This document shows, piece by piece, positions 12,079 to 50,384 of a DNA stretch of 64,000 nucleotides. The number at the start of each line of letters is the position of its first letter. Within the stretch, counting starts at the first letter, position 1. The translations under genes were made by a program, and so were the position numbers. The DNA comes from Gammaproteobacteria bacterium (lineage in GTDB: Bacteria > Pseudomonadota > Gammaproteobacteria > Xanthomonadales > SZUA-36), in contig JAJFLB010000056.1 of the NCBI GenBank assembly GCA_021772915.1, forward strand, positions 1-64,000, read 5' to 3'. A model generated the notes under the pieces. It saw only the letters and a program-made list of their open reading frames with translations, was not told where the DNA came from and did no database searches.

Positions 12079-12097
12079 AATGTACCTCCTGGTCCGT

Positions 12098-16383: not shown

Positions 16384-16404
16384 CGTATCTAGCTTCGATA
16401 TGAA

Positions 16405-16819: not shown

Positions 16820-16833
16820 TTGACCTAGGTCAA
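16820..16833. promoter_or_regulatory. Perfect Crp/Fnr-family palindrome
   Basis: TTGACCTAGGTCAA is a perfect 14-bp palindrome. Its centre is 98 bp from the minus-strand cytochrome start at 16728, while the second box (16872-16885) has its centre about 98 bp from the plus-strand start at 16976. Each divergent gene therefore has its own box at the same distance. Confidence 0.7.
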
Positions 16834-16871
16834 TTTGCCGAAAAACCCGCCCAAATTATTTGGAGCTATAA

Positions 16872-16885
16872 TTGATATAGGTCAT
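16872..16885. promoter_or_regulatory. Crp/Fnr-family binding site
   Basis: TTGATATAGGTCAT matches the FNR/DNR pattern with one terminal mismatch. It lies upstream of the multiheme cytochrome at 16976. Confidence 0.6.
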
Positions 16886-16975
16886 TTTGCTAATACAAAA
16901 ATAGGCACAGTATGCTAAATGGGAATGTGAAAATCACAGCGCCCAGACAATTGAAAAATCGATGAGGATAGTGCA

Positions 16976-30270: not shown

Positions 30271-30515
30271 TGAACGGTCCTCCTGTGATAACTGGTGGCT
30301 GGATAACGCGACCCATTATATCTTTTATTACATCCGGAAGCCCAAGTTGTGGGGATAGTGCCTTCAGGCTTCAGGCCCACGGCTCCATGGCATTGCAGTG
30401 CTTTAATCCCCACAGTAATTGTCCGCCACCGTTGCGCTGGATGATTGTATGGTCAGCAGTGCTGCAGCCTCTTATATCTGTGATAATAACGACCTGTTTC
30501 GCTGAAAATTACAAA

Positions 30516-31310: not shown

Positions 31311-32098
31311 TGGATGGCCTGGTCAGTTTCGGTTACACCCAGCTTGCCATGTTAAGAGATGTGGTGCCCATTGCAGCCATCCTGATCGGCTTTCAGATCC
31401 TGGTTCTGCGCCAACCCATCAAAAGCCCCGCACAAGTCACAATCGGCATGGTCCTGGTTCTACTGGGGCTCGCCATGTTTTTGCAAGGTCTGCAAATGGC
31501 GCTGTTTCCCTTGGGACGTTTGATGGCCGCACAACTTACTGCAGCGGATTTCATTTATGGCAGCGAAACCGGGACGCCATTGCAGGTACATTGGCTGGAC
31601 TACCTGTGGGTCTATGTCTTCGCCGCAGCCATAGGTTTTGCCACCACCATTGCAGAACCCGCGCTACTGGCGGTCGCCATTAAGGCCAACCACGTATCCG
31701 GCGGTACGATCACCGTGCGAGGGCTGCGACTCGCGGTCGCTGTTGGTGCCTCAATGGGTGTGACGCTTGGTGTGTTGCGTATTGTTACCGGCACGCCCCT
31801 GCATTGGTACATCATCAGTGGCTATGTTGTGGTGATAATCCAGACTACACTGACACCAAAACGAATTATTCCGTTGGCCTATGACTCCGGTGGTGTAACC
31901 ACCTCAACAGTGACCGTGCCGCTGGTGGCGGCGCTGGGTCTTGGACTGGCCGAGACCATTCCGGGTCGCAGCCCGCTACTTGACGGCTTCGGCTTGATCG
32001 CGTTTACCTGCCTGTTTCCCATCATGTCCGTCATGGGCTACGCACAACTGGTTGAATTCAAAGCACGGTGGCTGGCACGCCGTAACAGACAGGATTAA
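31310..32098 (+). CDS. DUF1538 membrane protein, second copy
   Basis: The 262-residue integral membrane protein is homologous to the preceding one throughout: LRQPIKSPAQ, LQMALFPLGRLM, TTIAEPALLAVA, and YDSGGVTTSTVTVPLVAALG. The repeated Ser/Thr-Gly-rich loop next to a helix could be a substrate or ion site. It overlaps the first copy by one base (stop TGA shares its last base with the ATG). The pair may form a heterodimer like other inverted-repeat transporters. It is followed 25 bp later by the PII-like gene. Confidence 0.82.
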   Translation: MDGLVSFGYTQLAMLRDVVPIAAILIGFQILVLRQPIKSPAQVTIGMVLVLLGLAMFLQGLQMALFPLGRLMAAQLTAADFIYGSETGTPLQVHWLDYLWVYVFAAAIGFATTIAEPALLAVAIKANHVSGGTITVRGLRLAVAVGASMGVTLGVLRIVTGTPLHWYIISGYVVVIIQTTLTPKRIIPLAYDSGGVTTSTVTVPLVAALGLGLAETIPGRSPLLDGFGLIAFTCLFPIMSVMGYAQLVEFKARWLARRNRQD

Positions 32099-35868: not shown

Positions 35869-35892
35869 ACGCAACACGTAGTTATGGTATTG

Positions 35893-35921
35893 AGCCCCGG
35901 TCTGTGAGGCCGGGGTTTTTT
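35893..35921 (+). terminator. Rho-independent terminator
   Basis: CCCCGG pairs with CCGGGG across a short loop and is followed by a run of six T. It lies about 25 bp after the stop of the secreted protein gene. Confidence 0.85.
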
Positions 35922-36088
35922 CTTCCCGGCACTAAATGATGTCCGGATATCCACTGATTTCCGTGATCGATTGTCATGCGTTCTACGACCAACGGAGTCA
36001 CCGAAAAGCCGTAATGGATATTATGTTGGTCCGGTCATATGTATAGTTAACAATTGAAAACAGGTTTTTAGCCGACAAGTCTGTGAAT

Positions 36089-37429
36089 ATGTATCGAAAA
36101 GTTTGTTCTTGGGATCACTCAGTTACCCGACCTCGGATGCGAAATCTCGCATTGCCCCATAACATCTGTGCACTATTGCTCTGCCTGGCTTTTAGTAGCC
36201 CATCCCAGGCTGATGATGGAACTCCAATCCCGGTTCAGCCCGCAGACTCAGTGGGGCGTTATACCGACGCCATAGATCTCGCGGAAGCGGAATTCAGTGC
36301 TTATTCCATGGAATTGGCTGATCTTTACCTGGGTTTGGGTCAATCATTGATGGACCTCGAGAAGTACGACGAATCACGCAAAGCATTTCAGCACGGCATG
36401 CAAATCGTGCGGGTAAATTTTGGCTTAAACAGCCCGGACCAAACGAATTACCTGTTCTCCCTCGCGGATATTGAAGACCAGGTAGGAGACCTGGCACTGG
36501 CGGACAAAATATTACAAAATGTTTACCTCATCAACGCCCGTACCTTTGGTGAAGATCATCCGGACATGCTGCCGGTGCTCGACAAGATGCTGAGCTGGTA
36601 CCTGAAAAGCATCGCAACGCATCCAGCGGACCGACCCTACGGCGGGCTCGCAAAAGCAGAGCGAATCACCAATAAAATGGCCGAGATTGTCGAACTGGAC
36701 AAAGGCCTCAGTCACCCGGACACAGCCAACCTTTACCGTCGGGTCGGCGAACTGAATTACCACCTGGCACACCTGTGGTCCAGTGCTGAGCTCCCGGCGA
36801 GTTCTGGCTTCACGTTTTCGACCGAAGGGTCGACATCCAGCAACCGGCCGCCCCAGCGCAGTACCATTGAACTGCACTTTAAAGAAGGCACCAATGCCTT
36901 CACAAAGCTTGCCGACTCAGTGAACCAGAACGAAGACCTCACGCCTTGGGCAAAAGCTGAGAGTGTTGCACAACTGGGTGACTGGTACCTTACGTTTGGC
37001 AGGACACATACCGCTGGCGAAATCTACCAGAGGGCCTACAGGTTTCTGGAAGCCAGCGACAGTGACGATCAACTGGCAAAGACTTTTTTTGAACGGCCAA
37101 CACCGGTACGTTTCCTGAACAACTCGCCACTCTCGCCCAACATACCGGAAAGTAGTGGTGAGAATGAACTCAATATCTCCATGACGATCACCAAAGGCGG
37201 CAAGGTCCAGGACGTCAAAATTCTCAATCCACCCGACCATGTGGGTAAACCCTGGTTAACAGAAATCAAGAAATCAGTAGTCAGTTTAAGGTTTCGTCCC
37301 AAAATGGTTGATGGGCGCGTGGTGAAATCGAAGGGATTCATTTTGCATTACACCATGCCGGAAACGGGGAGCACGCCTGGAACGGTGAGCACCCCGGAAA
37401 CAGTGCACACAACGGAAACGGGACGTTAG
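36089..37429 (+). CDS. TPR-like periplasmic protein with TonB-type C-terminal domain
   Basis: The protein has about 446 residues; an in-frame GTG lies six bases earlier. The signal peptide is long, with hydrophobic core ICALLLCLAFSSPSQA. Residues of about 50-200 look like kinesin-light-chain TPRs (LADLYLGLGQSLMDLEKYDESRKA and following). Residues of about 350-425 match the TonB C-terminal fold (LNISMTITKGGKVQDVKILN, VVSLRFRPKMVDGRVV, KGFILHYTMP). A Thr/Pro-rich tail follows. There is no TonB transmembrane anchor beyond the signal, so this is a periplasmic TonB-C carrier. It opens a run of thirteen co-directional envelope genes. Confidence 0.72.
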   Translation: MYRKVCSWDHSVTRPRMRNLALPHNICALLLCLAFSSPSQADDGTPIPVQPADSVGRYTDAIDLAEAEFSAYSMELADLYLGLGQSLMDLEKYDESRKAFQHGMQIVRVNFGLNSPDQTNYLFSLADIEDQVGDLALADKILQNVYLINARTFGEDHPDMLPVLDKMLSWYLKSIATHPADRPYGGLAKAERITNKMAEIVELDKGLSHPDTANLYRRVGELNYHLAHLWSSAELPASSGFTFSTEGSTSSNRPPQRSTIELHFKEGTNAFTKLADSVNQNEDLTPWAKAESVAQLGDWYLTFGRTHTAGEIYQRAYRFLEASDSDDQLAKTFFERPTPVRFLNNSPLSPNIPESSGENELNISMTITKGGKVQDVKILNPPDHVGKPWLTEIKKSVVSLRFRPKMVDGRVVKSKGFILHYTMPETGSTPGTVSTPETVHTTETGR

Positions 37430-37434
37430 ACGTG

Positions 37435-38223
37435 ATGGCTAACAGACTGACACTCGCTTTCTTCCTCGCCGGTCTGCTGGCGGCCTGCCAGATGCCCCAG
37501 CCGAGAGGGGGTCTGCCGCAGCCACCCATGCCCTCGATCCCGTCGAGTTCCCCAAGCTCCCCAAGTACTCCGAGCCTTCCAAGCCCCCCAAGTTCTCCGA
37601 GTGCTCCAACCCCGTCTGGCTCTCCACCTCCTTCAGAACAGTCCGGGTCGGAAGACTCGGGGGATTCCAGTGCCGGAGACAGTTCATCTGCCGGTGAGGG
37701 CAGCGAACAGCTTCCCATGCCGAGCGGTGCAGGTTCAGAGTCCGAGGAAGGCGGCGCCAGTGTTGAGGGACTGGATGAACAACTCGATGCAGCGTTGGAG
37801 GATTTTGATGAATCCGTAACCGGCGAAGGTGGAGGTGCCACTGAGGACACCATCGACATCCTCAGCCCAACGGGCGGAGGTAGCTCCTCCAGTGCGGCCA
37901 GTGATGAGCCTCTGTACGAAGAAGGCAGCCCCGAAGAGGGCGGCGGACCTGTTGAAAACGATGAATTGGCCAGGCGGGCGGAAGAAGGCGGTGGTGCAGG
38001 GGCTGAAGCTGAAGGACAGCAAGCGGGGAACGGCAACTTTGAGGGTGGAGAGAGCAGTGAGGCAAGCTCAGAGCCCATTGTTCCCATCCCCGAGGACATT
38101 GGCGACGGACGTAATGATGATATAGTCCTCAGGCAAGTGCGTGACGCGGCCATGAAAGAACGTAATGCAGAGCTCAGGGAGAAACTGTGGGATGAGTATC
38201 GACGCATAAGAGACCAAAGGTAG
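37435..38223 (+). CDS. Low-complexity Pro/Ser/Glu/Gly-rich lipoprotein
   Basis: The protein has about 262 residues from the ATG at 37435 (a GTG three bases earlier is possible). A lipoprotein signal ends in LLAAC. The mature protein is almost entirely low complexity: SPSSPSTPSLPSPPSSPSAP near the N-terminus, then acidic Ser/Glu/Gly-rich stretches. It ends in a more ordered basic segment (DDIVLRQVRDAAMKERNAEL and following). It may be an extended spacer that spans the periplasm from a lipid anchor. It follows the TonB-C gene by 5 bp. No family is recognised. Confidence 0.75.
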   Translation: MANRLTLAFFLAGLLAACQMPQPRGGLPQPPMPSIPSSSPSSPSTPSLPSPPSSPSAPTPSGSPPPSEQSGSEDSGDSSAGDSSSAGEGSEQLPMPSGAGSESEEGGASVEGLDEQLDAALEDFDESVTGEGGGATEDTIDILSPTGGGSSSSAASDEPLYEEGSPEEGGGPVENDELARRAEEGGGAGAEAEGQQAGNGNFEGGESSEASSEPIVPIPEDIGDGRNDDIVLRQVRDAAMKERNAELREKLWDEYRRIRDQR

Positions 38224-38227
38224 TTTA

Positions 38228-39424
38228 ATGACGACTGACAACAGACAATCGATAATTACGCTGAAGACACTACTCCTGGTGGCGTCATTTTTTGTACTGC
38301 CCGCCCATGCTGCTATTGACAAGGTGACCTCTTCGACCTTGCAACCACTTAAGACACCATCCACTTCGATTCCCGTTAACGCACTGCTGGATGTCGCCAT
38401 CCCGCCGTTGAATGACGGTCTACATTTGACGGATGAGGACGACACCGTTTTTCCGGAAGTGCGCTACGCCGAAACCATTTATTTTTCCAATCAACTTGCC
38501 AAGACGATGGAAAAGAGTGGCGCCTGGGGTGCAATCCGCGTGACACCCAATGAAGACGTGGTGATGGACGTTTATGTCACGGGTACCGTTCTGCAGTCAG
38601 ACGGTGAAACCCTGGACCTGGAAATCCGGGTATACGACACCAGCGGTAAACAATGGATGAAAGAACGATACACCCAGGTCACTGGTAAGTACGCCTACGA
38701 CCGACGCATGAAAAAGCTCGGCGACCCATTTCAGAACCTGTTCACAAACATTGCAAACGATGTGCTCAGGATCCGTGAGAGTATGTCTGACAAGGAGGCT
38801 GCGGGGTTACGGCAAATCTCCGAACTCCGGTTCGCCCGGGATTTCTCGCCTGAGTCCTTCGATGCGCATATAGGTGAAGACCGCGGCGGTATCCTTAAGG
38901 TTAACCGTTTACCTGCCGAGAACGACAGCATCCTGCAACGCGTTAACAAAATCCGCGATCGGGATTATCTGTATATCGACACCATGCAGGACTATTACGA
39001 TGTTTTTTCACAGCGAATGCATTTGGCATACCAGGATTTTCGCAAGGCGTCCTTTGATTCAGTGGTCAAGGCCAGGCTGCTAAAGAAGCAGGGTAACCGG
39101 CGTATCATAGCGGGTATAGGTGCCATCCTTGTGGGCATTTACGGTCGTTACGAAGGTAGTAACCGCATCCAGAGTGACGCCGGAACTGCAACCGCAGCCG
39201 TAGGTGGGTACGTGATCAAGTCTGGACTGGAAAAGAAACAGGAAGCGGCTGAGCACACCGAGGCAGTTGCAGAAATGGGTTCGTCGCTGGAAGCTGAAAT
39301 TGCACCGCAGGTTATTGAATTGGAAGATCGCACGATCACGCTGAGTGGTTCCGTACAGGCGCAATACGTGCAATGGCGGGAACTACTACAGCAGATTAAC
39401 AAGCAGGAACGTGGCACACTTTGA
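38228..39424 (+). CDS. Secreted protein of unknown function
   Basis: The 398-residue protein has a Sec signal (TLLLVASFFVLPAHA). The first domain (about 50-170) holds VPVNALLDVAIPPLNDG-like and VVMDVYVTGTVLQSDGETLD strands followed by LEIRVYDTSGKQWMKERYTQ. This resembles periplasmic beta-sandwich domains that measure or assemble lipoproteins. The middle is helical and charged. At about 285-325 a Gly-rich stretch (AGIGAILVGIYGRYEGS, AVGGYVIKSG) could be a glycine zipper. I do not recognise the family. It lies 4 bp after the lipoprotein gene and belongs to the same operon. Confidence 0.75.
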   Translation: MTTDNRQSIITLKTLLLVASFFVLPAHAAIDKVTSSTLQPLKTPSTSIPVNALLDVAIPPLNDGLHLTDEDDTVFPEVRYAETIYFSNQLAKTMEKSGAWGAIRVTPNEDVVMDVYVTGTVLQSDGETLDLEIRVYDTSGKQWMKERYTQVTGKYAYDRRMKKLGDPFQNLFTNIANDVLRIRESMSDKEAAGLRQISELRFARDFSPESFDAHIGEDRGGILKVNRLPAENDSILQRVNKIRDRDYLYIDTMQDYYDVFSQRMHLAYQDFRKASFDSVVKARLLKKQGNRRIIAGIGAILVGIYGRYEGSNRIQSDAGTATAAVGGYVIKSGLEKKQEAAEHTEAVAEMGSSLEAEIAPQVIELEDRTITLSGSVQAQYVQWRELLQQINKQERGTL

Positions 39425-39469
39425 AAGGGCGTCGGGTAAGCCCGTTGCCGCAGCTACAAATGACATTTG

Positions 39470-40903
39470 ATGCCCCACAGTAACGGTCCAGGAATAGATT
39501 CCCCGCCCACGTCCAGGAAAATCACCATCCTGGTATTGTTGCTGCTCGCCTTGTTTATCATATTTGTGTTACCGCGCCACGTGTCCGAGCCCTGGATTGC
39601 AGGCAAGGTGGAGGACACAACCGAGAACAACAAGGCAGAACCTTCTTATGTCAGCCCTTCGACTGCTGCAGAAAAAACCAAGTATCGCCAGGATTCACAG
39701 GGTGTGTTGGCGCAGATTATTGCCATCAGGGACCGTCTCCACGAACAGCACGTGGAGGTGTGGGCTGAGATCGACTTCCGTCAGGCTTTACAGGAAGTAA
39801 AGGATGGCGACGAGCAATACAGCTATGGGGAGTACCGTAACTCTCTGGATAATTATGAACAGGCGTTAAGTGACCTGTCAGCGCTCGAAGAGCTTGGCCG
39901 TGAAAAACTCAAAACAGCACTTGCCGAAGGCTTTGAGGCCGTAGAAGCTTTAAACATCAACCTTGCAACAGCATCCGGTGAGTTGGCGTTGGCCATCGCG
40001 GCCGGTGAAAAGAATGTGCAAACACTCAACGCGCGACTGAGAGTGTTACCCGATCTTGTGGAGCAAATGAATTCGGGTGATCAACAGCGTACCGGCGGGC
40101 AATTGGCTGCGGCTGAACTTGCCTACCAGAATGCGGTTGACCTCGATCCCCGACACCTGCGTGCCGCTGCATCACTATCTGCCATCAAGACGGAAATTAC
40201 GGAGAGCAATTTCCGTCTGCACATGAGTCGTGGCTTCACGGCTCTCGATAATGACGAATTCGAACAGGCAGAAAGCGCCTTCAAGAAGGCCGGTCTGGTA
40301 TACCCAGGGAATACCGCAGTGGCACAGGCTCTAGCCCAGGTAGAAACTCGTGAGTCCCAAATGCTGGTGAGCCGGCAAATGGGACAGGCTGCCGATCTTG
40401 AAGCTCAAGAAGAATGGCAGCAGGCGTTGGATATGTACAGAGTGCTGTTGGAACAGGACAGCACACTCACTGAGGCCAGAGTCAGGCAGATACCCACCAA
40501 GGTTCGTGCCGAACTGGATACACGCATGAGTGACGTTTTCGAGGATCCACTCAAGCTCGCGAACCCGGCTGAGTATAGGACGGCCCGGGTATTACTGAAC
40601 GATGCCCGCAGCATCCCCAAGCCAGGCGAAAAACTCACTGGCCAGGTCGCCAGGCTTGAGCAGTTGCTCGTCGCGGCCGTGTTACCTGTCAAGGTGGAAT
40701 TTCAATCCGATAATCTGACCAGAGTAACCCTCTTTCGGGTTGCAGAACTGGGTTCGTTCGAGAAGACATCGCTGCAATTGAAACCGGGCAGATATGTCGC
40801 GGCAGGCACCCGTAAAGGGTTCCGTGACGTCAGAATTGAGTTCACCGTCGGCGATGGCCCGCTTACGGGCCCGGTTGTTGTTCGCTGCGTAGAGTCTATT
40901 TAA
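39470..40903 (+). CDS. Membrane-anchored TPR protein with C-terminal beta domain
   Basis: The protein has 477 residues from the ATG at 39470 (a TTG precedes it). One transmembrane helix (ITILVLLLLALFIIFVLP) makes it a bitopic protein with most of its mass in the periplasm. The body is helical with TPR-like repeats (QQRTGGQLAAAELAYQNAVDLDP, DNDEFEQAESAFKKAGLVYP, EEWQQALDMYRVLLEQD). The last 70 residues form a PEGA-like or Ig-like beta unit (LKPGRYVAAGTRKGFRDVRI). It probably scaffolds the assembly. The next gene starts 22 bp later and encodes a protein with true PEGA repeats. Confidence 0.75.
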   Translation: MPHSNGPGIDSPPTSRKITILVLLLLALFIIFVLPRHVSEPWIAGKVEDTTENNKAEPSYVSPSTAAEKTKYRQDSQGVLAQIIAIRDRLHEQHVEVWAEIDFRQALQEVKDGDEQYSYGEYRNSLDNYEQALSDLSALEELGREKLKTALAEGFEAVEALNINLATASGELALAIAAGEKNVQTLNARLRVLPDLVEQMNSGDQQRTGGQLAAAELAYQNAVDLDPRHLRAAASLSAIKTEITESNFRLHMSRGFTALDNDEFEQAESAFKKAGLVYPGNTAVAQALAQVETRESQMLVSRQMGQAADLEAQEEWQQALDMYRVLLEQDSTLTEARVRQIPTKVRAELDTRMSDVFEDPLKLANPAEYRTARVLLNDARSIPKPGEKLTGQVARLEQLLVAAVLPVKVEFQSDNLTRVTLFRVAELGSFEKTSLQLKPGRYVAAGTRKGFRDVRIEFTVGDGPLTGPVVVRCVESI

Positions 40904-40925
40904 GTTTAGGGCCTGATGTACAAAC

Positions 40926-43013
40926 ATGGTTGCACACAACGACAATCCACCAATAGCGAAGCCGGTATTGACTGCAACGGAATTTACACCGTTGGGGTCC
41001 ACCAAAAAACGGCGAAAGACCAGGGTATCAGCCACTTATATTGCAGTGGGCAGTCTGGCGATAATTGCCGCGGTGATACTTACTTTACTGTTTACGGCCC
41101 GCTCGGTCATTTTTCACTCAGACCCGGAAGCCGCCAGACTCGACATCTCCGGGCTCTCGTTTAATATCGGCAACAATTTTCTGCTTTTTCCTGGTGATTA
41201 CCAGGTGTACGCGGAGGCAGAAGGTTACTTTCCTCTGGATCAAGCCATCACGGTAACAAGTGTCAAGTCGCAGGAGATCGAACTGACGCTTGCTCCACTG
41301 CCGGGCAAGCTTGAGCTCTCATCCGAACTGGATGAAATCGAAGTATCCATTGATGATGAACCGAGTGGCTCTGCACCCGGTCTTATCGAGGACATTGGCC
41401 GCGGCTCGCACAAAATCAGTTTCAACAAGCACCGCTACTTTACACTTGAACAAGAGATAGAAATTGAAGGTCTCGGCAAAACACAGTCCATGAGCGTTTC
41501 GCTGGAACCCGCCTGGGGACAAATGCAATTCAGCTCTGTTCCCACTGGCGTGGATGTCTATATTGACGACCAGATGATGGGGGTAACGCCACTAACGACG
41601 GAGGTCCTGGAAACTGGCAATGAGCTTAAATTGGTAGCACGCGGCTATAAAACCTGGAAGCAGGCGGTTTCGGTCCGTGCCGGAACAACCGAATCCTGGC
41701 CATCAATCGAACTGACGGTTGCTGACGGCAAGCTGCAGGTCAGCAGCTCACCGGGTGGCGCCAATATTACTATCGACAAGAAATTCAAAGGCACAACGCC
41801 ACTGACAGTGCCCTTGTCGCCACTCCACGCCCACCGGCTGGAACTGTTTCTGGAGGGTTACCAGAAAGCGGTTCGCACGGTTAATATTGAACCGGAGGAA
41901 CAGTTCTCAATGGTCGTGAATCTGTCTCCCATTATTGGCCGCATTCAACTCGCCCTTGATCCAGAGGACGCAGAAATCGTGGTGGATGGCAAGGTCAAGG
42001 GACAGGGGAGCCAAACCCTGGCACTTACCGCCAAGGAACACAACATCGTGTTTCGAAAAGACGGCTACGAAACACAAACCATGGATGTCACGCCCAGACC
42101 CGACCATCAACAGGCACTTGACATAAAACTGCTGACCCTTGAACAGGCCTACTGGGCGTCACGTCCGCCACGCATTAACAGTCCGGTGGGTTCCGTTTTG
42201 AAACTATTCCGCCCCGACAGCGCCTTCACCATGGGGGCACCGCGACGCCAACCAGGTCGACGCGCTAACGAGGTAGAACGCAATGTCCGCCTGCAGCGAC
42301 CTTTTTATATCAGTGTGCACGAAGTGACCAATGCCGAGTTCCGTCTGTGGCAGGAAGAACACAGCTCAAGGGCGGTCCGCGGACAGACACTGGATATGGA
42401 TGAGCAGCCAGTCGCCAACATATCCTGGCAGCAAGCGGCGCTGTTTTGCAACTGGTTGAGTCGTCGCGGAGGTTTGCCGTTGTTCTATATAGAGGAAAAC
42501 GGACTGATTACCGGGTTTGACGTCGACTCCCACGGTTATCGGCTGCCAACCGAAGCCGAATGGGCCTGGGCAGCAAGAATCAATACAGGGGAATCGCCCT
42601 CGATGTTTCCCTGGGGTAACGACTTATACCCGCCAGAAAATATCACCGCGAACTACGCCGATCAAAGTGTGGCGAAACTTCTCAACTTTACCTTGTCCAA
42701 CTATAACGACGGCTACGCGGTTTCCGCGACCGTTGGCAGTTTTGAGTCCAACACCAAAGGGCTGTACGACATGAGTGGCAACGTGGCGGAATGGATCAAT
42801 GATTACTACGACATTCGCCCAGTGCGTGGGGAACCCACGCCAGACCCCACGGGTCCCACCAATGGTAATCGCCATGTCATCCGTGGGGCAAGCTGGGCAC
42901 TGGCTTCTCGTTCGGAATTGCGTCTGAGTTACCGTGACGCAGGTGCCGACGGCCGTATGGACATTGGGTTCAGGATCGGTCGTTATGTTGACAAACTGGA
43001 TATCGAGCCATGA
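40926..43013 (+). CDS. PEGA-repeat protein with FGE/sulfatase-modifying-like domain
   Basis: The 695-residue protein has a transmembrane helix near 38-60 (TYIAVGSLAIIAAVILTLLF). About five PEGA-like repeats follow to residue 400; the clearest are VDVYIDDQMMGVTPLTTEVL and ANITIDKKFKGTTPLTVPL. Residues of about 430-690 are an FGE/EgtB-type C-lectin-like domain: EVTNAEFRLWQEEHSS, ANISWQQAALFCNWLSRR, YRLPTEAEWAWAAR, GLYDMSGNVAEWINDYY and VIRGASWALAS. The two catalytic cysteines of true formylglycine-generating enzymes are absent before the GFR end, so it is probably a binding or structural domain. A cytoplasmic N-terminus of about 35 residues faces the proteins encoded downstream. Confidence 0.85.
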   Translation: MVAHNDNPPIAKPVLTATEFTPLGSTKKRRKTRVSATYIAVGSLAIIAAVILTLLFTARSVIFHSDPEAARLDISGLSFNIGNNFLLFPGDYQVYAEAEGYFPLDQAITVTSVKSQEIELTLAPLPGKLELSSELDEIEVSIDDEPSGSAPGLIEDIGRGSHKISFNKHRYFTLEQEIEIEGLGKTQSMSVSLEPAWGQMQFSSVPTGVDVYIDDQMMGVTPLTTEVLETGNELKLVARGYKTWKQAVSVRAGTTESWPSIELTVADGKLQVSSSPGGANITIDKKFKGTTPLTVPLSPLHAHRLELFLEGYQKAVRTVNIEPEEQFSMVVNLSPIIGRIQLALDPEDAEIVVDGKVKGQGSQTLALTAKEHNIVFRKDGYETQTMDVTPRPDHQQALDIKLLTLEQAYWASRPPRINSPVGSVLKLFRPDSAFTMGAPRRQPGRRANEVERNVRLQRPFYISVHEVTNAEFRLWQEEHSSRAVRGQTLDMDEQPVANISWQQAALFCNWLSRRGGLPLFYIEENGLITGFDVDSHGYRLPTEAEWAWAARINTGESPSMFPWGNDLYPPENITANYADQSVAKLLNFTLSNYNDGYAVSATVGSFESNTKGLYDMSGNVAEWINDYYDIRPVRGEPTPDPTGPTNGNRHVIRGASWALASRSELRLSYRDAGADGRMDIGFRIGRYVDKLDIEP

Positions 43014-43246
43014 AACGAATACTGTTTTACTTCCTGTTGGTGGTTTCATTATCAGTCTTTGCGCAACAGCAATCCGAGCGTGCGGAAGAACCAAAGACAC
43101 AGACGGAGCGGACCACCAATACGGAACCGGACAACGCTGATGAAGGTGCTGATGAGTCGTCGGAAGCCAAGCCCGGAGACACTGATTTCAAACCGAAAGA
43201 AGAGATTTCTGAGGATTTTCCGGTATCTCTTCCATCCGACATTTAA
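43010..43246 (+). CDS. Small secreted acidic low-complexity protein
   Basis: The 78-residue protein overlaps the PEGA/FGE gene by 4 bp (ATGA). A signal peptide (ILFYFLLVVSLSVFAQQ) is followed by a Glu/Thr/Asp-rich disordered stretch ending EDFPVSLPSDI. The disorder and acidity resemble those of the lipoprotein at 37435, so it may be a periplasmic linker or a target of the M48 protease of the cluster. No family is recognised. Confidence 0.7.
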   Translation: MKRILFYFLLVVSLSVFAQQQSERAEEPKTQTERTTNTEPDNADEGADESSEAKPGDTDFKPKEEISEDFPVSLPSDI

Positions 43247-43285
43247 CGCACATGGATTGACCGATTTTGCATCTGACCGAATGTG

Positions 43286-43333
43286 CCATTAATTACCATG
43301 CAGGACACTGGTGTACTGCATGGTAATTAATGG
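43286..43333. repeat. Long hairpin, with a third half-copy at 43552-43569
   Basis: CCATTAATTACCATGCAG (43286-43303) pairs perfectly with its reverse complement at 43316-43333. The same 18 bases recur directly at 43552-43569. Over 24 bases (to ACACT) the two direct copies differ once, so the 340-bp gap between the small acidic gene and the ExbB-like gene is framed by a direct repeat. Confidence 0.75.
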
Positions 43334-43342
43334 TACTTTCAG

Positions 43343-43436
43343 AGGCTACCTGTGGCTGCAATGCAAGGCGGGGTTCGCAGGGAATGGCTGGTCCTTTTCA
43401 AGAAGCCCAACGCGGCAGTGCAGCCACAGGTAGCCT
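43343..43436. repeat. Palindromic intergenic cassette B
   Basis: AGGCTACCTGTGGCTGCA (43343-43360) pairs perfectly with 43419-43436. The interior words TGCAAGGCG, GGCTGGT and CAACGCGGCA occur in the same order as in cassette A at 8-107, whose arms are different. This implies a shared core within unrelated arms. Confidence 0.65.
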
Positions 43437-43445
43437 CCCTGCGGG

Positions 43446-43542
43446 CCAGTCGCAAAGCGGTCATCCGCGGTGTTATGTCCCCTTGCGGTAGAGTGGCTAC
43501 CCCGGCGGGAACATGCCTTGCGGCTAACCGCTTTGCAGCTGG
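43446..43542. repeat. Imperfect palindromic cassette
   Basis: CCAGTCGCAAAGCGGT (43446-43461) pairs with ACCGCTTTGCAGCTGG (43527-43542) at 14 of 16 positions. It abuts cassette B and ends just before the third copy of the 18-base hairpin arm. No coding capacity is seen in the whole 43247-43586 gap. Confidence 0.5.
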
Positions 43543-43586
43543 CTGAAAGGGCCATTAATTACCATGCAGTACACTAGAGCAACATT

Positions 43587-44381
43587 ATGAAAAGCAATAG
43601 CAATGAAATGTTTTACCAATTGGTCGCCCTGATCGTTTCGGTAATCATAGTCCACACGGTTTATGTCACCGTGGTTCGGCCGAATGCAGATGCACAGATT
43701 CGCCGGGCAGCCGAACAGTCTGCTGCCGGTGAACAATATGTTGTACCCCGCTCGTTTTTCATCGTGATCAAGGATTTTGAGCAGGAAGCCTGTTTTGTCC
43801 TGGCATTCTGGGCACTTGCCATCATGGGATACAAGTCCCGCACTTCATTGCGGGAAAAACGCATGCTGGACACGCCTCTGGTATCGATTGCAGAAGGAAC
43901 CCGGATTTTGCCAGATGATGCGGGACAACTGACAAGGCCATTGCAGTCCCTGCCCGCGGAACAGCAGAATTACCTATTGCCGCGTGCCTTACAAACCGCG
44001 TTATCCCGTTTCCAGACCACGGCTTCGATACAGTCCGCCACCGAGGCGGTGAACACCATCTGTGAGCGGGAGGACAGCCGGCTGGATTCAGAGCTGTCCA
44101 TGGTTCGCTACATTACCTGGGCCATTCCTTCCATTGGGTTTATTGGTACCGTACGGGGTATTGGCGCGGCGCTGGGACAGGCACACGAGGCCATGGAGGG
44201 TAATATCGCCGGCGTGACCGCCAACCTTGGTGTCGCCTTCAACTCAACCTTCATCGCGCTGTTGCTCAGTATCGTCGTCATGTTTTTCATCCACCAGCTG
44301 CAACTGATCCAGGAACGGCTGGTTCTGGATTCCAACTCCTACTGTGAAAACCGCCTGCTGCGATTTCTCAAATCTGATTAG
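43587..44381 (+). CDS. ExbB/TolQ/MotA-family proton channel protein
   Basis: The 264-residue protein has an N-terminal helix (LVALIVSVIIVHTVYVTVV), a second helix (ACFVLAFWALAIMGY), a cytoplasmic stretch, and then the family core. SMVRYITWAIPSIGFIGTVRGIGAALGQA is the helix pair typical of TolQ/ExbB/MotA, followed by VTANLGVAFNSTFIALLLSIVVMFFIHQL. The TVRGIG and AFNSTFIAL segments carry the usual Thr/Gly residues along the ion path. Its partner is expected to be a bitopic protein with a proton-binding Asp in its single helix. No ExbD or MotB gene is present, but the two vWA proteins downstream have an N-terminal helix with a FLD motif. Confidence 0.88.
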   Translation: MKSNSNEMFYQLVALIVSVIIVHTVYVTVVRPNADAQIRRAAEQSAAGEQYVVPRSFFIVIKDFEQEACFVLAFWALAIMGYKSRTSLREKRMLDTPLVSIAEGTRILPDDAGQLTRPLQSLPAEQQNYLLPRALQTALSRFQTTASIQSATEAVNTICEREDSRLDSELSMVRYITWAIPSIGFIGTVRGIGAALGQAHEAMEGNIAGVTANLGVAFNSTFIALLLSIVVMFFIHQLQLIQERLVLDSNSYCENRLLRFLKSD

Positions 44382-44383
44382 AT

Positions 44384-45652
44384 ATGACACTGGCCGCACT
44401 GGAATTGAATGACCAGCTCTTGCTGATACAGGCGGAGGGGGAAGACCTACACGCGGAACCCGGCTATGCCCACCTGACACCCACGGGTGTGGAGACCGGG
44501 GAGCATGCACGTGCCGTGGCCTGGCGCGAGCCCCAGCATAGCTACAACCAGTACTGGTGCCACCTGAACCAGTCGTCACTGCCCGCAAAACAAGACCATG
44601 CACGTCACCACGCGGACATTGCCTATGTCCAGCTCCAGCACCTTTGGCAACAGGCTGGATCACCGGAATCCCTGATCGTAATGGTGCCCGGCAGTTTTAG
44701 TGATGACCAGGTCTCTTTACTGCTGGGTATGATCAGCGCCCTGGGGTGCGAAACAAAGGCGGTGATCGACAGCGCGCTTGCGGCGTGTGTTCAGATTACG
44801 AGGAACACCTTACTCATCGACATGCAACTGCACCAAACGGTTTTGACCGTTTGCCACCCGGGAGCATCGGCACTCAGCATAGTCGACCAGGAAGTCATTC
44901 CAGACCTTGGCATACAGCAGTTACATAATTCAGTGGCACGGCACATCAGTAATATGCTGATCGACTCTTACCGCTATGATCCCCTGCATACTTCCGCGCA
45001 CGAGCAGGCCATTTTCAATGAAATGCCGGCATGGCTCACACGTTTGCGCTGGGACAATGAAGTCTCCGGCACCTTGTCTTCGGATCAGGGTGAACTGACC
45101 TTTATTCTACGCCGCGAGGATGTTCGTAATCTTATCTACGAACGTTTGGCCAACCTGCGTTCTTTTGTTGCAAAGCATTCCGATTCTGAGGTGCTTCTCT
45201 CCCATGCTGCTGGTCTGCTGGCAGGTCTGGCGGCTGATTTTTCAGCAGCAAGTGTGGCGGGGCAAGCGGCTGTAGTCGATAACATGCTTTTATCCCACCT
45301 ACAGACGCTGGAGCAGACAGACGACCTGCACCGGCTGCGCTCGCTGGCACGCGTTGCAACAGGACCTACCCAAACCGACTCTACACACGGGTTAGCCACT
45401 CACGTGCTGTATCGAGACCAGGCACTGACATTGCACAAACCGGTCAGCATCCAGTTTGAAAACGATGGTATTCGGCTCAGCAACGAAATTGACAATGATG
45501 CTGAGCTCATCATCGTCATCAAGAATCAATCCCTGGAGATCCTGCACACCGCCCCGGGAACGGACACCATCATGCCTGGATCATGCCGGTCAGGCGAGTC
45601 GATCAAGGTGGGCGATCACCAGCTGACGCTGATTGAGGTCCGGGATGCCTAG
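44384..45652 (+). CDS. Actin/Hsp70-fold-like cytoplasmic protein
   Basis: The 422-residue protein lacks a signal or membrane segment. Two features suggest an actin-like ATPase fold: SLIVMVPGSFSDDQVSLLLG followed by a small-residue helix, as in Hsp70-like proteins, and a second subdomain opening NTLLIDMQLHQTVLTVCH like the phosphate-2 strand pair. A later SEVLLSHAAGLLAGLAADF helix resembles the adenosine-binding end. The last 75 residues (LTLHKPVSIQFENDGIRLSN to IKVGDHQLTLIEV) are beta-rich, perhaps FHA-like. It lies 2 bp after the channel gene. The fold assignment comes from pattern alone. Confidence 0.6.
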   Translation: MTLAALELNDQLLLIQAEGEDLHAEPGYAHLTPTGVETGEHARAVAWREPQHSYNQYWCHLNQSSLPAKQDHARHHADIAYVQLQHLWQQAGSPESLIVMVPGSFSDDQVSLLLGMISALGCETKAVIDSALAACVQITRNTLLIDMQLHQTVLTVCHPGASALSIVDQEVIPDLGIQQLHNSVARHISNMLIDSYRYDPLHTSAHEQAIFNEMPAWLTRLRWDNEVSGTLSSDQGELTFILRREDVRNLIYERLANLRSFVAKHSDSEVLLSHAAGLLAGLAADFSAASVAGQAAVVDNMLLSHLQTLEQTDDLHRLRSLARVATGPTQTDSTHGLATHVLYRDQALTLHKPVSIQFENDGIRLSNEIDNDAELIIVIKNQSLEILHTAPGTDTIMPGSCRSGESIKVGDHQLTLIEVRDA

Positions 45653-46703
45653 AAAACGACGCAACACAGCGTTCAGCCTGTCCTTTCTCGACATTATGGC
45701 CTGTGGCTTTGGTGCCGTGACGCTGTTGTTCCTGATCCTGCGTCACGATGCGGTCAAAGTGGAAGTGCCGGACGTTCGTTTGTCAGCCGAGGTCGACCTT
45801 TTGCGTCAGGATGTAAGCCAGGCCGAAAGTGAGAAGACCGAATTGCTCAACAGCCTGGATGAACTGAAGTTGCAACTGGTGGACGCACAAGGACTTTCGA
45901 GACGTATCGTGACACAGTTAGAAGAAGCCGAGAAAAGCATCCAGGCAGACCCCGAGAGTGAAATTGCCATGTTGCGCCGGCAGGTCGAAGAACTCGAACG
46001 TGAAACGGCCAGCATGGAGGAAGTTGAATTTGGCGACAAGGTGCGCCAATTTCTGGGTGAAGGTAACCGGCAATACCTCACCGGCCTCAATCTTGGTGGT
46101 GAGCGTGTGCTGATCCTGGTGGATGGTTCCGCGAGCATGCTCGCGGACTCGGTGGTCAATATCATTCGCCGCAGGAATATGCAGGATGAGCAGAAAAAGA
46201 ACTCGTCAAAGTGGCAATGGACCTTGCGCACAGTGGACTGGTTACTGGCCCAATTGCCACCCAGCAGCCGCTTTCAACTCTATATTTTCAATACCGGTGT
46301 ATATCCGGCGCTTGTTGGCAGTGAGGGTGAGTGGCTGGACGCTGCTGACTCGCTGAAACTGGAGCAGGTGGCAGAAGGCCTGCATGATTTCTCGCCAGGT
46401 GGTGGCACGAGTCTCGAAAACGCCTTCACAGCACTTACCGATTTTGCAGACAGACCGGATAACGTGTTCCTGTTGACGGACGGCTTGCCCACCCAGGGCA
46501 AGGATCCACCCAAGAAATACATGGTTACCGGCGAACAACGCCGACGACATTTTGTCTCTGCCATCGAAAAACTTCCGCGTGGTGTTCCCGTGAATACGAT
46601 CCTGTTTCCAATGGAAGGGGACCCTGAAGCGGCCGCGCTGTTCTGGCAATTTGCAATGATTACAAGGGGCGCGTTTATCGCGCCTTCGAGGGACTGGCCA
46701 TGA
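45645..46703 (+). CDS. Membrane-anchored coiled-coil vWA protein 1
   Basis: The protein has 352 residues from the ATG at 45645, preceded by GAGG and overlapping the previous stop. The N-terminal motif SLSFLDIMACGFGAVTLLFLIL forms a single helix containing an Asp. A coiled coil follows (about 40-130, many Glu/Leu/Arg heptads). The vWA domain starts at ERVLILVDGSASM with a DxSxS MIDAS, and has GGGTSLENAF for the MIDAS Thr and FLLTDGLPTQG for the distal Asp. The layout (one helix, coiled coil, periplasmic ligand-binding domain) parallels ExbD/MotB/TolR, with vWA replacing the usual periplasmic domain. Confidence 0.82.
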   Translation: MPRKRRNTAFSLSFLDIMACGFGAVTLLFLILRHDAVKVEVPDVRLSAEVDLLRQDVSQAESEKTELLNSLDELKLQLVDAQGLSRRIVTQLEEAEKSIQADPESEIAMLRRQVEELERETASMEEVEFGDKVRQFLGEGNRQYLTGLNLGGERVLILVDGSASMLADSVVNIIRRRNMQDEQKKNSSKWQWTLRTVDWLLAQLPPSSRFQLYIFNTGVYPALVGSEGEWLDAADSLKLEQVAEGLHDFSPGGGTSLENAFTALTDFADRPDNVFLLTDGLPTQGKDPPKKYMVTGEQRRRHFVSAIEKLPRGVPVNTILFPMEGDPEAAALFWQFAMITRGAFIAPSRDWP

Positions 46704-47689
46704 AACGGTTACGCCGGAGTGAGTTGAAGGAAGCAAGCCTGTCTTTTCTGGATGTCATCAGTTGTGGCTTTGGCGCAATCGTGTTGTTGCTCATTATCGC
46801 CCGGGTCGGTGATCCCTCCGCATTGGAGGAAGCCGAGAGCCAATTGCAGGGTGCGGTCAAGCAACTCCAGGAGCGATTGTTCGATATACGTGGTGAGTCC
46901 GTGGTACTCAACGAGGACTTTAAATCCCGCAAGGAACAGATTTCAGAATTGCTTGAAAGAGTAGCAAGATTGCAAAAACGTATGGCCAGCGTGGAAAAAC
47001 AATCGAAAGAAGTTTCCAATTCTCAGGTCTTAGAAAAGGAAAAGCTAAAACTTGCCCTACAGGTATTAAGTGAAGAAATGGAACGTCTGCAACCCCAAGC
47101 CCAATCCCAAAACCAGCTCATTGGCGGCGTGCCTGTAGATAGTGAGTACATTATTTTTGTCATCGACACTTCCGGCAGTATGCAGGTCGCAGCCTGGCAA
47201 AAAGTTCAAAAGGAGATGCTTAATATCCTGAACATCTACCCCACCGTGAAGGGTATTCAGATTCTCAACGACATGGGCCAATACATGTTTCCTTCGTACA
47301 AGGGCCGTTGGATCCCGGATAGCGAAGACATGCGTAAGAACATCATAAGAACGCTTTCCAATTGGTCACCGTTCAGCAATTCCAGCCCGGTGGAAGGAAT
47401 TACTGCGGCCATCAAGACTTTTTATCAGCAAGACCGTAAAATCAGTGTCTACGCACTGGGTGATGATTTCCAAGGACGCTCAATCCGGCGCGTCGTAAAA
47501 GTCGTGGATACGCTGAACCAGGCCCATCGTGGCGGCGAACGGTTGGTCCGCGTCCATACCATTGGGTTTCCGGTACACTTTCCCGTCGGCAGGACTCCAC
47601 CGGCTTCAGCAGTCAGGTTTGCAGCATTGATGAGGGAACTGAGCTATAACAACGGCGGGACCTTCATCGGTCTGACCGAACTTCAATAA
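46700..47689 (+). CDS. Membrane-anchored coiled-coil vWA protein 2
   Basis: The 329-residue paralogue of the preceding protein overlaps it by 4 bp. The N-terminal SLSFLDVISCGFGAIVLLLIIA helix again carries the FLD..CGFGA pattern. A coiled coil spans about 40-130 (EEAESQLQGAVKQLQERLF, KLKLALQVLSEEMERL). The vWA domain has FVIDTSGSMQVA (MIDAS DxSxS), and SPVEGITAAIKTF and YALGDDF in the places of the later MIDAS residues. Two such proteins in tandem suggest a hetero-oligomeric stator-like pair with the ExbB-like channel. Confidence 0.82.
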   Translation: MKRLRRSELKEASLSFLDVISCGFGAIVLLLIIARVGDPSALEEAESQLQGAVKQLQERLFDIRGESVVLNEDFKSRKEQISELLERVARLQKRMASVEKQSKEVSNSQVLEKEKLKLALQVLSEEMERLQPQAQSQNQLIGGVPVDSEYIIFVIDTSGSMQVAAWQKVQKEMLNILNIYPTVKGIQILNDMGQYMFPSYKGRWIPDSEDMRKNIIRTLSNWSPFSNSSPVEGITAAIKTFYQQDRKISVYALGDDFQGRSIRRVVKVVDTLNQAHRGGERLVRVHTIGFPVHFPVGRTPPASAVRFAALMRELSYNNGGTFIGLTELQ

Positions 47690-47697
47690 GGAGATTT

Positions 47698-48312
47698 ATG
47701 CGATTCGGAATAACACAAACCAGTAGTGCGCTAGCACTCACAATTTTCCTCTCCGGTTGTGGTTCGACGGCCCAGGTCAAGGTTGCAGCGCAGTTCCCGT
47801 CTGTCCTGGCCGAACCCCGAGATATCAAGACTGCGTTGGTCATCAATGATGAGTTTCGGACTTATGTGGCCAAGCCCACTGCGAAAACCAGCATTGAACT
47901 GGGTAACGCCCAGTCAGACTTGCTGGGCAAGGCCTTTCTTGGTCTGTTCAGCCAGGTCGAGACCATCGCATCCAAAGACCAGGTCAGCCCTGGCACCGAG
48001 CTTGTAATCACACCTTCGGTGCGTGAAGTCCAGATGTCGACGCCCTCGGACTCCTATCTCAATGTTTACGAAGTATGGATCAAGTACAACCTGGATATTG
48101 AGACCTTTGATGGCGATATGATCGACAGCTGGTTCATGCCTGCCTACGGCAAAACACCGGATTCATTCATGCTTTCGCGAAGCAAAGCCATCAATGAAGC
48201 CACCGTCGTTGCTATTCGTGACGCAGGAGCCAAGTTGTTATTGGATTTCTACCGTATCCCTTCGGTAAACGGCTGGTTCAAGCAACGTCAGCAACCCGAG
48301 GTGACACCATGA
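47698..48312 (+). CDS. Lipoprotein of unknown function
   Basis: The 204-residue protein has a strong AAGGAG ribosome site and a lipobox LSGC. The mature part has a mixed alpha/beta pattern (RDIKTALVINDEFRTYVAKP, GTELVITPSVREVQMSTPSD, VYEVWIKYNLDIETFDGDMI). This resembles periplasmic lipoproteins of the YajG or DUF799 type, but I cannot assign a family. It overlaps the next lipoprotein gene by 4 bp. Its place after the vWA pair suggests an outer-membrane partner of the machine. Confidence 0.75.
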   Translation: MRFGITQTSSALALTIFLSGCGSTAQVKVAAQFPSVLAEPRDIKTALVINDEFRTYVAKPTAKTSIELGNAQSDLLGKAFLGLFSQVETIASKDQVSPGTELVITPSVREVQMSTPSDSYLNVYEVWIKYNLDIETFDGDMIDSWFMPAYGKTPDSFMLSRSKAINEATVVAIRDAGAKLLLDFYRIPSVNGWFKQRQQPEVTP

Positions 48313-48971
48313 ATTGGTACCGGTGGGCAGGTATTGCTACAACCGCATTACTCTGCGGCTGTTCCGCCACAACCACTATCGATGAGTTGCGGCCAACCCT
48401 AACCCCAACTGAAATTGCACCGGGAGAGAGAATTGTCATCCTGGGCAGGCGCGATGCCGGACACTATGAAACCGATCGCGATTTTGTCGACTGTGTCGGC
48501 AATAAACTCAAGGGTCTCGGTATCGGCATACTGCCCGAACAGGAATTCATTGACGCCATATACCCTTGGTTCGAGCCGCGTACTGCACCAAAAAGTCTGG
48601 GCCGGCTGACACGACTCCTGGAAGACCCTTTCGTCAAGGAAAAAGTTGACACAAAGGACCTTCACTACCTGGTATGGCTAGACGGTCGTACTGAAACCGA
48701 GGGTTCCGGGGGTTCAATGAGCTGTGCGATATCACCGGCAGGTGGCGGTTGTTTTGGTTTTGCACAATGGGACAAGGTTTCTGTCTACGAAGCCATTGTC
48801 TGGGATTTGACAGATCTGACGGAAAAGGGTCGAATCCGGGTGGATTCTTCCGGAACTTCCTACCTGATTGGCGTGGTCGCACCCATCCCACTTTTGTCGC
48901 CAGTGAAAAACGACGCTTGTAAGGGGCTGGGCAAGCAATTGAGATCTTATTTCGCCACTGAGGATGACTAA
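48309..48971 (+). CDS. Lipoprotein of unknown function
   Basis: The 220-residue protein has a lipobox LLCGC after a short signal. The mature part contains ERIVILGRRDAGHYETDRDF, then a domain with HYLVWLDGRTETEGSGG. A Cys-containing loop (SMSCAISPAGGGCFGFAQWD) is followed by a VYEAIVWDLTDL strand. The paired cysteines may form a disulfide. No family is recognised. It directly abuts the M48 protease gene, whose GTG start follows the stop codon without a gap. Confidence 0.75.
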   Translation: MNWYRWAGIATTALLCGCSATTTIDELRPTLTPTEIAPGERIVILGRRDAGHYETDRDFVDCVGNKLKGLGIGILPEQEFIDAIYPWFEPRTAPKSLGRLTRLLEDPFVKEKVDTKDLHYLVWLDGRTETEGSGGSMSCAISPAGGGCFGFAQWDKVSVYEAIVWDLTDLTEKGRIRVDSSGTSYLIGVVAPIPLLSPVKNDACKGLGKQLRSYFATEDD

Positions 48972-50384
48972 GTGATCGCCGGTGTCTGGAAAGTCCTTTC
49001 GATTGCACTTTTTCTCAGCGTGCTTTCTTCAACCGCGTTGGCAATACCCAGCGGGAAAGAAATCTACGAGGAGATGCTTGAGACAATGGGTGCTTACGAT
49101 GACCCTGAATTGTCCACCCACATAGAAGATCTCGGTCGGCAAATTGTTGCCGTATCCGAGATGTCTGAAGAGGAATTCACCTTCACCCTGCTCGATTCCC
49201 CCGCACTCAATGCTTTTGCGACGGATGATAATTATGTCTACATTAATCGCGGCCTGCTGAACTACATCAGCAACGACGCGCAGCTGGTATCGGTCCTGGC
49301 CCACGAAGTCGGCCATGTCACCAAGAATCACGTCAAGGGTACACAGACCAAGCAGGGGGGTGCGCAGGTCCTCGCGACGATTGCCGCCATATTGTCCGGC
49401 AGTAACGAAGTTTACGAAGCCGGCATGGCCTATGCCAATTCATTGATCCGTGGACACGGTCGCTCCAATGAGCTCGAGGCCGACGAGGCGGGCGCCCAAT
49501 ACATGGCAAGTCTGGGCTACGACCCGCAAGAGATGTTGAAGATGCTCTCGGTCATGAAAGACGTGGAATCACTGCAGAAACTGCGGGCGCGGGATAAGGG
49601 TGCACCGAGACAGACCTATCACGGGATATTTTCCACGCACCCGCGTAACGACGCCAGGTTACGTGGCGCAGTCGGCCGGGCTGGCACCGGCAAACCGGAA
49701 GACAAGCGTGACAACGGTGCCGCCCATTATCGCCAACTCACTGAAGGTCTGACCTGGGGGGAAAACTTCCTGGAAAAGGAAAAGAAACCCACACGCTGGT
49801 CCAATCTGCAACTGCGTGTGCGTTTTGACTTCCCGCAAGACTGGACCCATGACACAGACCCCCGGGGCCAGGTGGTCACCGGCAAACCGGAAGACGGCAC
49901 CGCGAGCCTGACCATGGAACCCAAGGCCCGTACCGCCCAGGACCCTGAAGAATACCTGTATAACTATCTCAACGCGCCGCAACTGCGCGAAGGCAAGACC
50001 ATTCAACCCGCCAGGCTGAAGGGGTTTACCGGCATCCTGACCGGCAAAGATGGCAAGCCGGACGTGCGTATCGCGGTGGTCTATTACAAACTCAATGCCT
50101 ACATTTTCACTGGCGAGGTAGACGACCCGAAAAAATTCAGCGAGTACGATGCGGCCTTCATGGAGTCCATTGCCACATTCCGCCCCATCTCCAGCCGTGA
50201 AATTGCGGGCCAGAAACCCAAGACCATACACTATGTCAAAGCCACCAAAGCCACCACCTTTAACGCCCTGGCCAAGTCAATGAAGCTCAGTGTCTCGGAA
50301 GCGCAGGACTTGCGTCTTATCAATGGATACTTCCCGACCGGTGAGCCAAAACCGGGCGAGTGGATCAAGATTTTCAAACAGTAA
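48972..50384 (+). CDS. Periplasmic M48 metalloprotease with LysM-like C-terminus
   Basis: The 470-residue protein starts with GTG directly after the previous stop. The signal peptide (LSIALFLSVLSSTALA) is followed by an M48 domain: LLDSPALNAFATDDNYVYINRGLL, the HEVGH zinc motif (about residue 114) and the ELEADEAGAQYMASLGYDP third-ligand helix. A middle beta domain contains LRVRFDFPQDWTHDTD. The last 60 residues (TIHYVKATKATTFNALAKSMKLS to IKIFKQ) look like LysM, fitting peptidoglycan binding. BepA and YcaL are related M48 proteases of envelope quality control. It closes the cluster and probably matures or clears its components. Confidence 0.88.
   Translation: MIAGVWKVLSIALFLSVLSSTALAIPSGKEIYEEMLETMGAYDDPELSTHIEDLGRQIVAVSEMSEEEFTFTLLDSPALNAFATDDNYVYINRGLLNYISNDAQLVSVLAHEVGHVTKNHVKGTQTKQGGAQVLATIAAILSGSNEVYEAGMAYANSLIRGHGRSNELEADEAGAQYMASLGYDPQEMLKMLSVMKDVESLQKLRARDKGAPRQTYHGIFSTHPRNDARLRGAVGRAGTGKPEDKRDNGAAHYRQLTEGLTWGENFLEKEKKPTRWSNLQLRVRFDFPQDWTHDTDPRGQVVTGKPEDGTASLTMEPKARTAQDPEEYLYNYLNAPQLREGKTIQPARLKGFTGILTGKDGKPDVRIAVVYYKLNAYIFTGEVDDPKKFSEYDAAFMESIATFRPISSREIAGQKPKTIHYVKATKATTFNALAKSMKLSVSEAQDLRLINGYFPTGEPKPGEWIKIFKQ

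Follow-up and report, generated by a model that had tools for sequence, protein, structure and literature searches.

A conserved thirteen-gene cluster in a gammaproteobacterium and its candidate TolQ-like trans-envelope motor with a von Willebrand factor A axle

What kind of machine could be encoded by a gene cluster that has a TolQ/ExbB-like channel and no ExbD or TolR to go with it? The question is raised by a stretch of 64,000 nucleotides from a Gammaproteobacteria bacterium (contig JAJFLB010000056.1 of assembly GCA_021772915.1), hereafter called the window, in which thirteen genes, g01 to g13, occupy positions 36083-50384. Cells use proton-driven motors of the 5:2 type for flagella, for gliding and secretion, for taking up nutrients and for defence against phages. 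We consider it fairly probable that the cluster encodes a trans-envelope motor of this type, driven by the proton motive force and belonging to the TPH-vWA branch, in which a heterodimer of two von Willebrand factor A (vWA) proteins, vWA1 and vWA2, replaces ExbD, TolR, MotB or GldM.

All thirteen open reading frames (ORFs) of the window's ORF list lie on the + strand. An earlier, sequence-only reading of this DNA had described thirteen co-directional and tightly packed genes, and all of them were found, 11 of the 12 junctions being below 50 bp or overlapping (between -20 and +42 bp from the ORF coordinates). It had placed the start of the cluster at 36089, whereas the first start of g01 in the ORF list is a GTG at 36083. 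The features are as follows.

36083..37429, + strand: g01, exported tetratricopeptide repeat (TPR) protein with a TonB-C/AgmX-like C-terminus, a Gammaproteobacterial accessory (TPR_12 E 1.8e-16)
37432..38223, + strand: g02, acidic low-complexity lipoprotein, core (lipobox; conservation; found in another class)
38228..39424, + strand: g03, exported protein with a FlgT/PelC/TolB-N/CsgG-like N-terminal domain followed by long helices, core (AlphaFold2 model, fold matches)
39467..40903, + strand: g04, TPR protein with an N-terminal membrane anchor, core (TPR_2 E 9e-7; found in another class)
40926..43013, + strand: g05, N-terminal transmembrane (TM) helix, five PEGA domains and a domain of the formylglycine-generating enzyme (FGE) fold, core (PEGA 4e-47, FGE-sulfatase 4e-39)
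43010..43246, + strand: g06, acidic exported protein of 78 amino acids (present in 45 related loci)
43280-43577, no strand: repeat element resembling a miniature inverted-repeat transposable element (MITE), between g06 and g07, with 35-nt inverted arms
43587..44381, + strand: g07, TolQ/ExbB-like channel, core (Pfam MotA_ExbB E 1e-14; T188 and T221; TolQ alignment; tree)
44384..45652, + strand: g08, cytoplasmic protein with the fold of the Hsp70 nucleotide-binding domain and a C-terminal beta domain, accessory (AlphaFold2 pLDDT 90)
45633..46703, + strand: g09, vWA1, core (ExbD-like TM helix with Asp20, coiled coil, vWA head with a complete metal ion-dependent adhesion site, MIDAS)
46700..47689, + strand: g10, vWA2, core (ExbD-like TM helix with Asp18, coiled coil, vWA head with DxSxS)
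47698..48312, + strand: g11, lipoprotein, accessory (lipobox-like motif in 70/78)
48309..48971, + strand: g12, lipoprotein, accessory (LLCGC lipobox by eye; lipobox-like motif in 66/75)
48972..50384, + strand: g13, exported M48 metalloprotease, accessory (M48 Pfam 5e-31)

The ExbB/TolQ-like channel of the sequence-only reading is borne out for g07, and this family assignment rests on the Pfam MotA_ExbB match and not on the alignment with TolQ, for which the whole-protein E in HMMER is only 0.07. The alignment sets GTVRGIG on GTVWGI and NSTFIAL on ATAIGL, and all 70 sequences keep both pore threonines, T188 and T221. A small tree places the vWA-linked channels apart from the genome's TolQ/ExbB proteins, across a branch supported at 100/99. 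Furthermore, on each of the genome's four Tol/Exb contigs an ExbD gene lies close to the channel gene, whereas the contig of the window (C52) and that of a paralogous cluster (C19) have none near theirs. No ExbD/TolR-family gene is found in the window, and the five of the genome are all on other contigs. The family membership, the alignment of T188 and T221 with TolQ, the separate branch and the lack of an adjoining ExbD all argue for the proposed motor.

A scan of GTDB representatives with vWA2 gave 434 relatives, and the loci of the best 80 of these 434 were compared. The two vWA proteins were recognised by the sequence-only reading, and Pfam does give vWA matches for g09 and g10, weak and below the cut-off. 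The homology of vWA1 to vWA2 runs along the length of the proteins (hhalign 99.2%), though the two are distinct. Both N-termini follow LSFLD[IV][MI]xCGFGA, which resembles the ExbD/TolR helix (the genome's own TolR: VPYIDVMLVLLVIF), and Asp20 of vWA1 and Asp18 of vWA2 are each present in 80/80. Distant homologues keep the helix Asp with other flanking residues (AFLDIMASGLGA), and it is also kept in the vWA proteins of the paralogue (SAIDLFASALGA); this invariance further supports a motor. The coiled coils are nearly free of proline over about 90-100 residues, and would span about 14 nm if straight (estimated by eye, with 0.15 nm for each residue). In the head of vWA1 the MIDAS is complete, with D164, S166, S168, T259 and D283 each in 80/80, and the DxSxS of vWA2 is likewise found in 80/80.

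Because the helix Asp is invariant and no ExbD is nearby, vWA1 and vWA2 are probably the dimeric axle of the motor. The claim that the cluster has no ExbD or TolR is thus true as gene content, but the axle is not missing, as an ExbD-like helix with its proton-binding Asp sits on the vWA proteins themselves.

Could these genes have been gathered by chance? This was ruled out by the kept gene order together with changing flanks. Among marine bacteria and their relatives, the thirteen families occur in the same order across loci of Porticoccaceae/SAR92, Halieaceae and Lysobacterales, as far as each locus extends, with the fast-evolving g01, g02 and g06 below threshold in some of them. Of the genes that flank the cluster in the window, two upstream and one downstream, none was found beside it in the 80 related loci. 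The downstream flanks vary by lineage: read by eye, one group has trpA/trpB-like genes there and another a metallo-beta-lactamase-like gene. The co-occurrence of the families across genomes, which the sequence-only reading had proposed to search for, was seen both in the order of the 80 loci and among 274 genomes of the class, where g03 and vWA2 are found together in 17, alone in 2 and 1, and neither in 254 (Fisher p ~9e-23 without the query genome, a value that overstates the evidence because species are not independent). The cluster is real, conserved and multi-gene, and its kept order and co-occurrence, together with the intact MIDAS of vWA1, add to the case for a motor.

Seven of the genes (g02, g03, g04, g05, g07, g09 and g10) are taken as the core, because the detectable cluster shrinks to them, as far as contigs reach, in three divergent genomes of the class and also in a second class of the phylum. 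They encode an acidic protein, a CsgG/FlgT-fold protein, a TPR protein, the PEGA-FGE protein, the TolQ-like channel and the two vWA proteins. The cluster was absent from 9/9 other genomes of the window's own order, so its presence is patchy. In one genome (locus L130, genome G091) the g07 channel gene stands behind vWA2, showing that in one family the operon order is not absolutely fixed.

The core motor idea, derived from structure prediction alone, is already published. TolQ-like genes with a heterologous TM-vWA pair and no tolR/exbD were described mainly from Proteobacteria and Verrucomicrobia, with Idiomarina loihiensis in Fig. 4c-d; AlphaFold 3 models place the vWA Asp facing the channel Thr ring, and the authors regarded the assemblies as putative transducers of force still to be studied (Mol Biol Evol 2025 msaf138, PMC12204202). 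The main text of that paper agrees with the window in the TolQ-like gene, the adjacent distinct vWA pair, the conserved helix Asp and the lack of an adjoining tolR/exbD/motB, and its independent prediction of the core supports the motor reading. The two differ in that this main text describes the motor genes only: the seven-gene core, the Hsp70-fold, FGE, FlgT/PelC-fold and M48 proteins are unmentioned there, and the terms PEGA, SUMF1 and formylglycine are absent from it. Nor did the literature searched beyond msaf138 yield anything on the full thirteen-gene composition, the pseudo-Hsp70, the protein of the FlgT/PelC fold or the GldK-like FGE. The claim of an undescribed system hence no longer applies to the motor core, while it may hold for the wider composition, as far as the main text of msaf138 and the literature searched go. 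What the present analysis adds is the complete set of genes with its boundaries, the apparently inactive Hsp70-fold partner, the FlgT/PelC/TolB-type protein, the cysteine-less GldK/PorK-like FGE and a kinase/FHA-linked paralogue.

The PEGA/FGE and TPR parts named by the sequence-only reading were recognised by Pfam. For the FGE domain of g05 the best PDB matches are PorK/GldK (E 6.5e-16), and this likeness also favours the motor reading. The GldK model gives 103 bits against a cut-off of 350, making g05 a fold relative outside the family. The catalytic cysteine pair of FGE is not found in g05, where Cys508 is single and no other Cys-bearing column exists in the FGE domain. In genome G205 (locus L126, ORF 13131-15542, minus strand) the PEGA-FGE homologue begins with an apparent FHA-like domain, which the g05 of the window lacks.

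GldK, in the type IX secretion system (T9SS), is a known FGE fold beside a 5:2 motor. The cluster could be read, with low probability, as a T9SS-like secretion or gliding machine whose GldL/M/K/N analogues move a surface adhesin or export proteins. A motor, a periplasmic axle and an FGE-fold envelope protein do occur together as in GldL-GldM-GldK, and PorK/GldK are the nearest solved structures. However, no Pfam/NCBIfam match to GldL, GldM or GldN was obtained among the cluster proteins scanned, the axle of the window is of the vWA type and not GldM, its PEGA-FGE protein is anchored by a TM helix, PorV was not recognised, and no translocon or barrel gene lies in the cluster. A search of the genome for SprA gave no match, but carries no weight, as the control genomes gave none either. 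The Agl-Glt gliding machinery of Myxococcus has a TolQ-like motor, TPR proteins, AgmX/PglI and the vWA protein CglB. The window shares with it the TolQ-like motor, TPR proteins, a weakly AgmX/PglI-like C-terminus and a vWA protein; it differs in that the vWA is fused to the axle helix and that no barrel genes are recognised in the cluster.

The fold of g03 bears on a second alternative. Its model (AlphaFold2 pLDDT 78) has a domain at about 46-191 that matches FlgT (VIA Z 11.2), PelC (10.6), TolB (9.6) and CsgG (9.5), which again agrees with a motor; a profile search of g03 against PDB sequences gave no match. A lipobox is present in 28/59 sequences and missing from the window copy, so that the lipoprotein label given by the sequence-only reading suits about half of the relatives and not this gene. 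A Tol-Pal-like system purely stabilising the outer membrane, perhaps under special conditions, would explain the TolQ-like channel, the TolB-N-like fold and the BepA-like protease g13, and with Tol-Pal/Ton the cluster shares the channel family, the pore threonines and an axle helix with Asp. This too is unlikely, since the genome has its own TolQ-TolR pair, the cluster is without ExbD/TolR, TolA/TonB and Pal, its axle bears a coiled coil and a vWA head, and it is patchy in presence and absent from the nine other genomes of the order.

The actin-fold-like cytoplasmic protein of the sequence-only reading is g08, for which AlphaFold supports an actin/Hsp70 fold: against DnaK (2v7y) the model gives VIA Z 29.1 over 310 residues, and Foldseek E ~5e-16. 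The Hsp70 phosphate motifs DLGTT, DxGGGT and GGxxR are not found in g08; the equivalent segments are ALELNDQL, LLIDMQLHQ and VLLSHAAGL (by eye), and they are not among the conserved columns. Because these motifs are degenerate, g08 is probably inactive, apparently a pseudo-Hsp70 and not an ATPase. A forkhead-associated (FHA) identity of its C-terminal beta domain was not recovered, with no Pfam match in 27 members and hhalign at 25% at best.

A second, related motor-like cluster is present in the same genome. On contig C19 (L140, 102600-122500), at about 4957-12969 on the minus strand, a related channel is encoded together with a pair of vWA proteins, a pair of FHA proteins and a fusion of kinase, TPR and FGE domains, next to a gene for a large lipoprotein. 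Profile comparison with the window gave 99.3% for the channel, 96 and 93% for the vWA pair and 99.5% for the FGE domain, hence channel, vWA and FGE recur in two settings; for the lipoprotein and acidic protein of C19 the same comparison found no homology to g03 and g02. The C19 cluster is possibly a phospho-regulated relative. In genome G090 a channel and a vWA gene stand beside FHA-like and PP2C-like genes (the latter two by eye).

A gated sensor or signalling complex, in which vWA heads sense the state of the envelope and the channel and g08 relay it inward, would suit a paralogue that adjoins a Ser/Thr kinase and FHA proteins, as well as a g08 that is cytoplasmic and apparently no ATPase. 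We think this quite unlikely, because the invariant pore Thr and both axle Asp are expected for a working proton-driven motor, and the thirteen-gene cluster contains no regulator. A Zorya-like phage defence system shares the MotA-family channel (weak ZorA similarity, 15 bits only) and is very improbable, as ZorB, ZorC and ZorD have no match among the ten cluster proteins scanned, exported and lipoprotein parts dominate and no defence genes were recognised adjoining the cluster. Membership in T9SS, Zorya and Tol-Pal/Ton fails on the features tested.

The force-transducing trans-envelope assembly put forward by the sequence-only reading is the best reading. In such a motor, with the stoichiometry that we infer, a pentamer of the TolQ-like g07 would encircle the TM helices of a vWA1-vWA2 heterodimer. 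Proton transfer between channel Thr and axle Asp is established for the motor family. By inference for this cluster, protons passing Asp20/Asp18 and the threonines of the g07 pore would turn the heterodimer, and the coiled coils would carry the metal-binding vWA heads across to the periplasm's outer half, close to where the lipoproteins presumably sit. There the heads may contact outer-membrane-associated partners, namely g03 with its FlgT/PelC/TolB fold and the lipoproteins g02, g11 and g12, and force would be applied to a ring of lipoproteins at the outer membrane or to the ligand of that ring. The PEGA-FGE protein g05 and the TPR protein g04 could form a periplasmic housing lining the path, as GldK does for GldLM, while the pseudo-Hsp70 g08 would regulate the motor, or hold it in place, from the cytoplasmic side and the M48 protease g13 would clear faulty envelope proteins. 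Its physiological role is most likely the maintenance or assembly of the envelope or of a surface structure, rather than flagellar motility.

Several points weigh against this motor. The pentamer-dimer assembly is deduced from homology and from the models of msaf138; two homodimers instead of vWA1:vWA2 in one axle are possible; and neither a barrel protein of the outer membrane nor a secreted substrate could be recognised among the genes of the cluster. The FlgT/PelC/TolB/CsgG fold is common in outer-membrane lipoproteins, several of which form rings. The FlgT/TolB/CsgG fold of g03 nevertheless proves neither a ring nor a function.

The cluster provides a full parts list with tested boundaries for a branch so far known from structure prediction alone, and cultured carriers of it exist, among them Kineobactrum sediminis F02 (L094) and Sediminihaliea albiluteola F7430 (L090). 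Cysteine-less FGE-fold proteins recur beside 5:2 motors, as PEGA-FGE in the window and as kinase-FGE in the paralogue. A bolder and more doubtful speculation is a distinct class of rotary machine, with a heterodimeric vWA axle, a TolQ-like pentamer, a GldK-like FGE/PEGA housing, a FlgT/PelC-type outer-membrane ring and regulation by an Hsp70-fold protein or by kinase/FHA, possibly serving a process unknown in these bacteria, e.g. surface transport or secretion.

Among the remaining proteins, g01 lies immediately upstream of g02 in 4 further genomes. The TonB-C assignment of the sequence-only reading would refer to its C-terminus, which is weakly supported by the AgmX/PglI C-terminal model (15.4 bits, E 0.015). 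The C-terminal motif PxDI..G..DD.V.RQ.R.AA is conserved in g02. Family searches with g11 and g12 gave nothing beyond the lipid-attachment site, and PDB profile searches gave no match. The M48 protease call for g13 stands: HExxH and the third Glu are invariant, leaving the M48 site intact, and the protease domain is BepA-like (3.7e-26 with the BepA model, below its cut-off). The LysM also claimed for g13 was not recognised by Pfam, its C-terminal end being LysM-like by eye only.

The junction between g06 and g07 (340 bp) is the only one of the 12 above 50 bp and contains the MITE-like element, which splits the operon and is no part of the system. The element is about 270 bp long, with further internal inverted repeats besides its arms, and the genome holds four other near-full-length copies (~270 bp, 89-90%) and many fragments. 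Its insertion looks recent and local, as the g06-g07 gap is short in related loci (median 25 bp). Behind the gene upstream of the cluster lies a strong terminator-like hairpin (35892-35918), a kind of scan result that alone is no evidence of function.

Elsewhere in the window, multihaem cytochrome genes with MtrC/MtrF-like and cytochrome c7/c3 matches are found at 13024-18520 and 25523-26851, and may point to extracellular electron transfer. Two adjacent genes for DUF1538 membrane proteins are located at 30270-32098.

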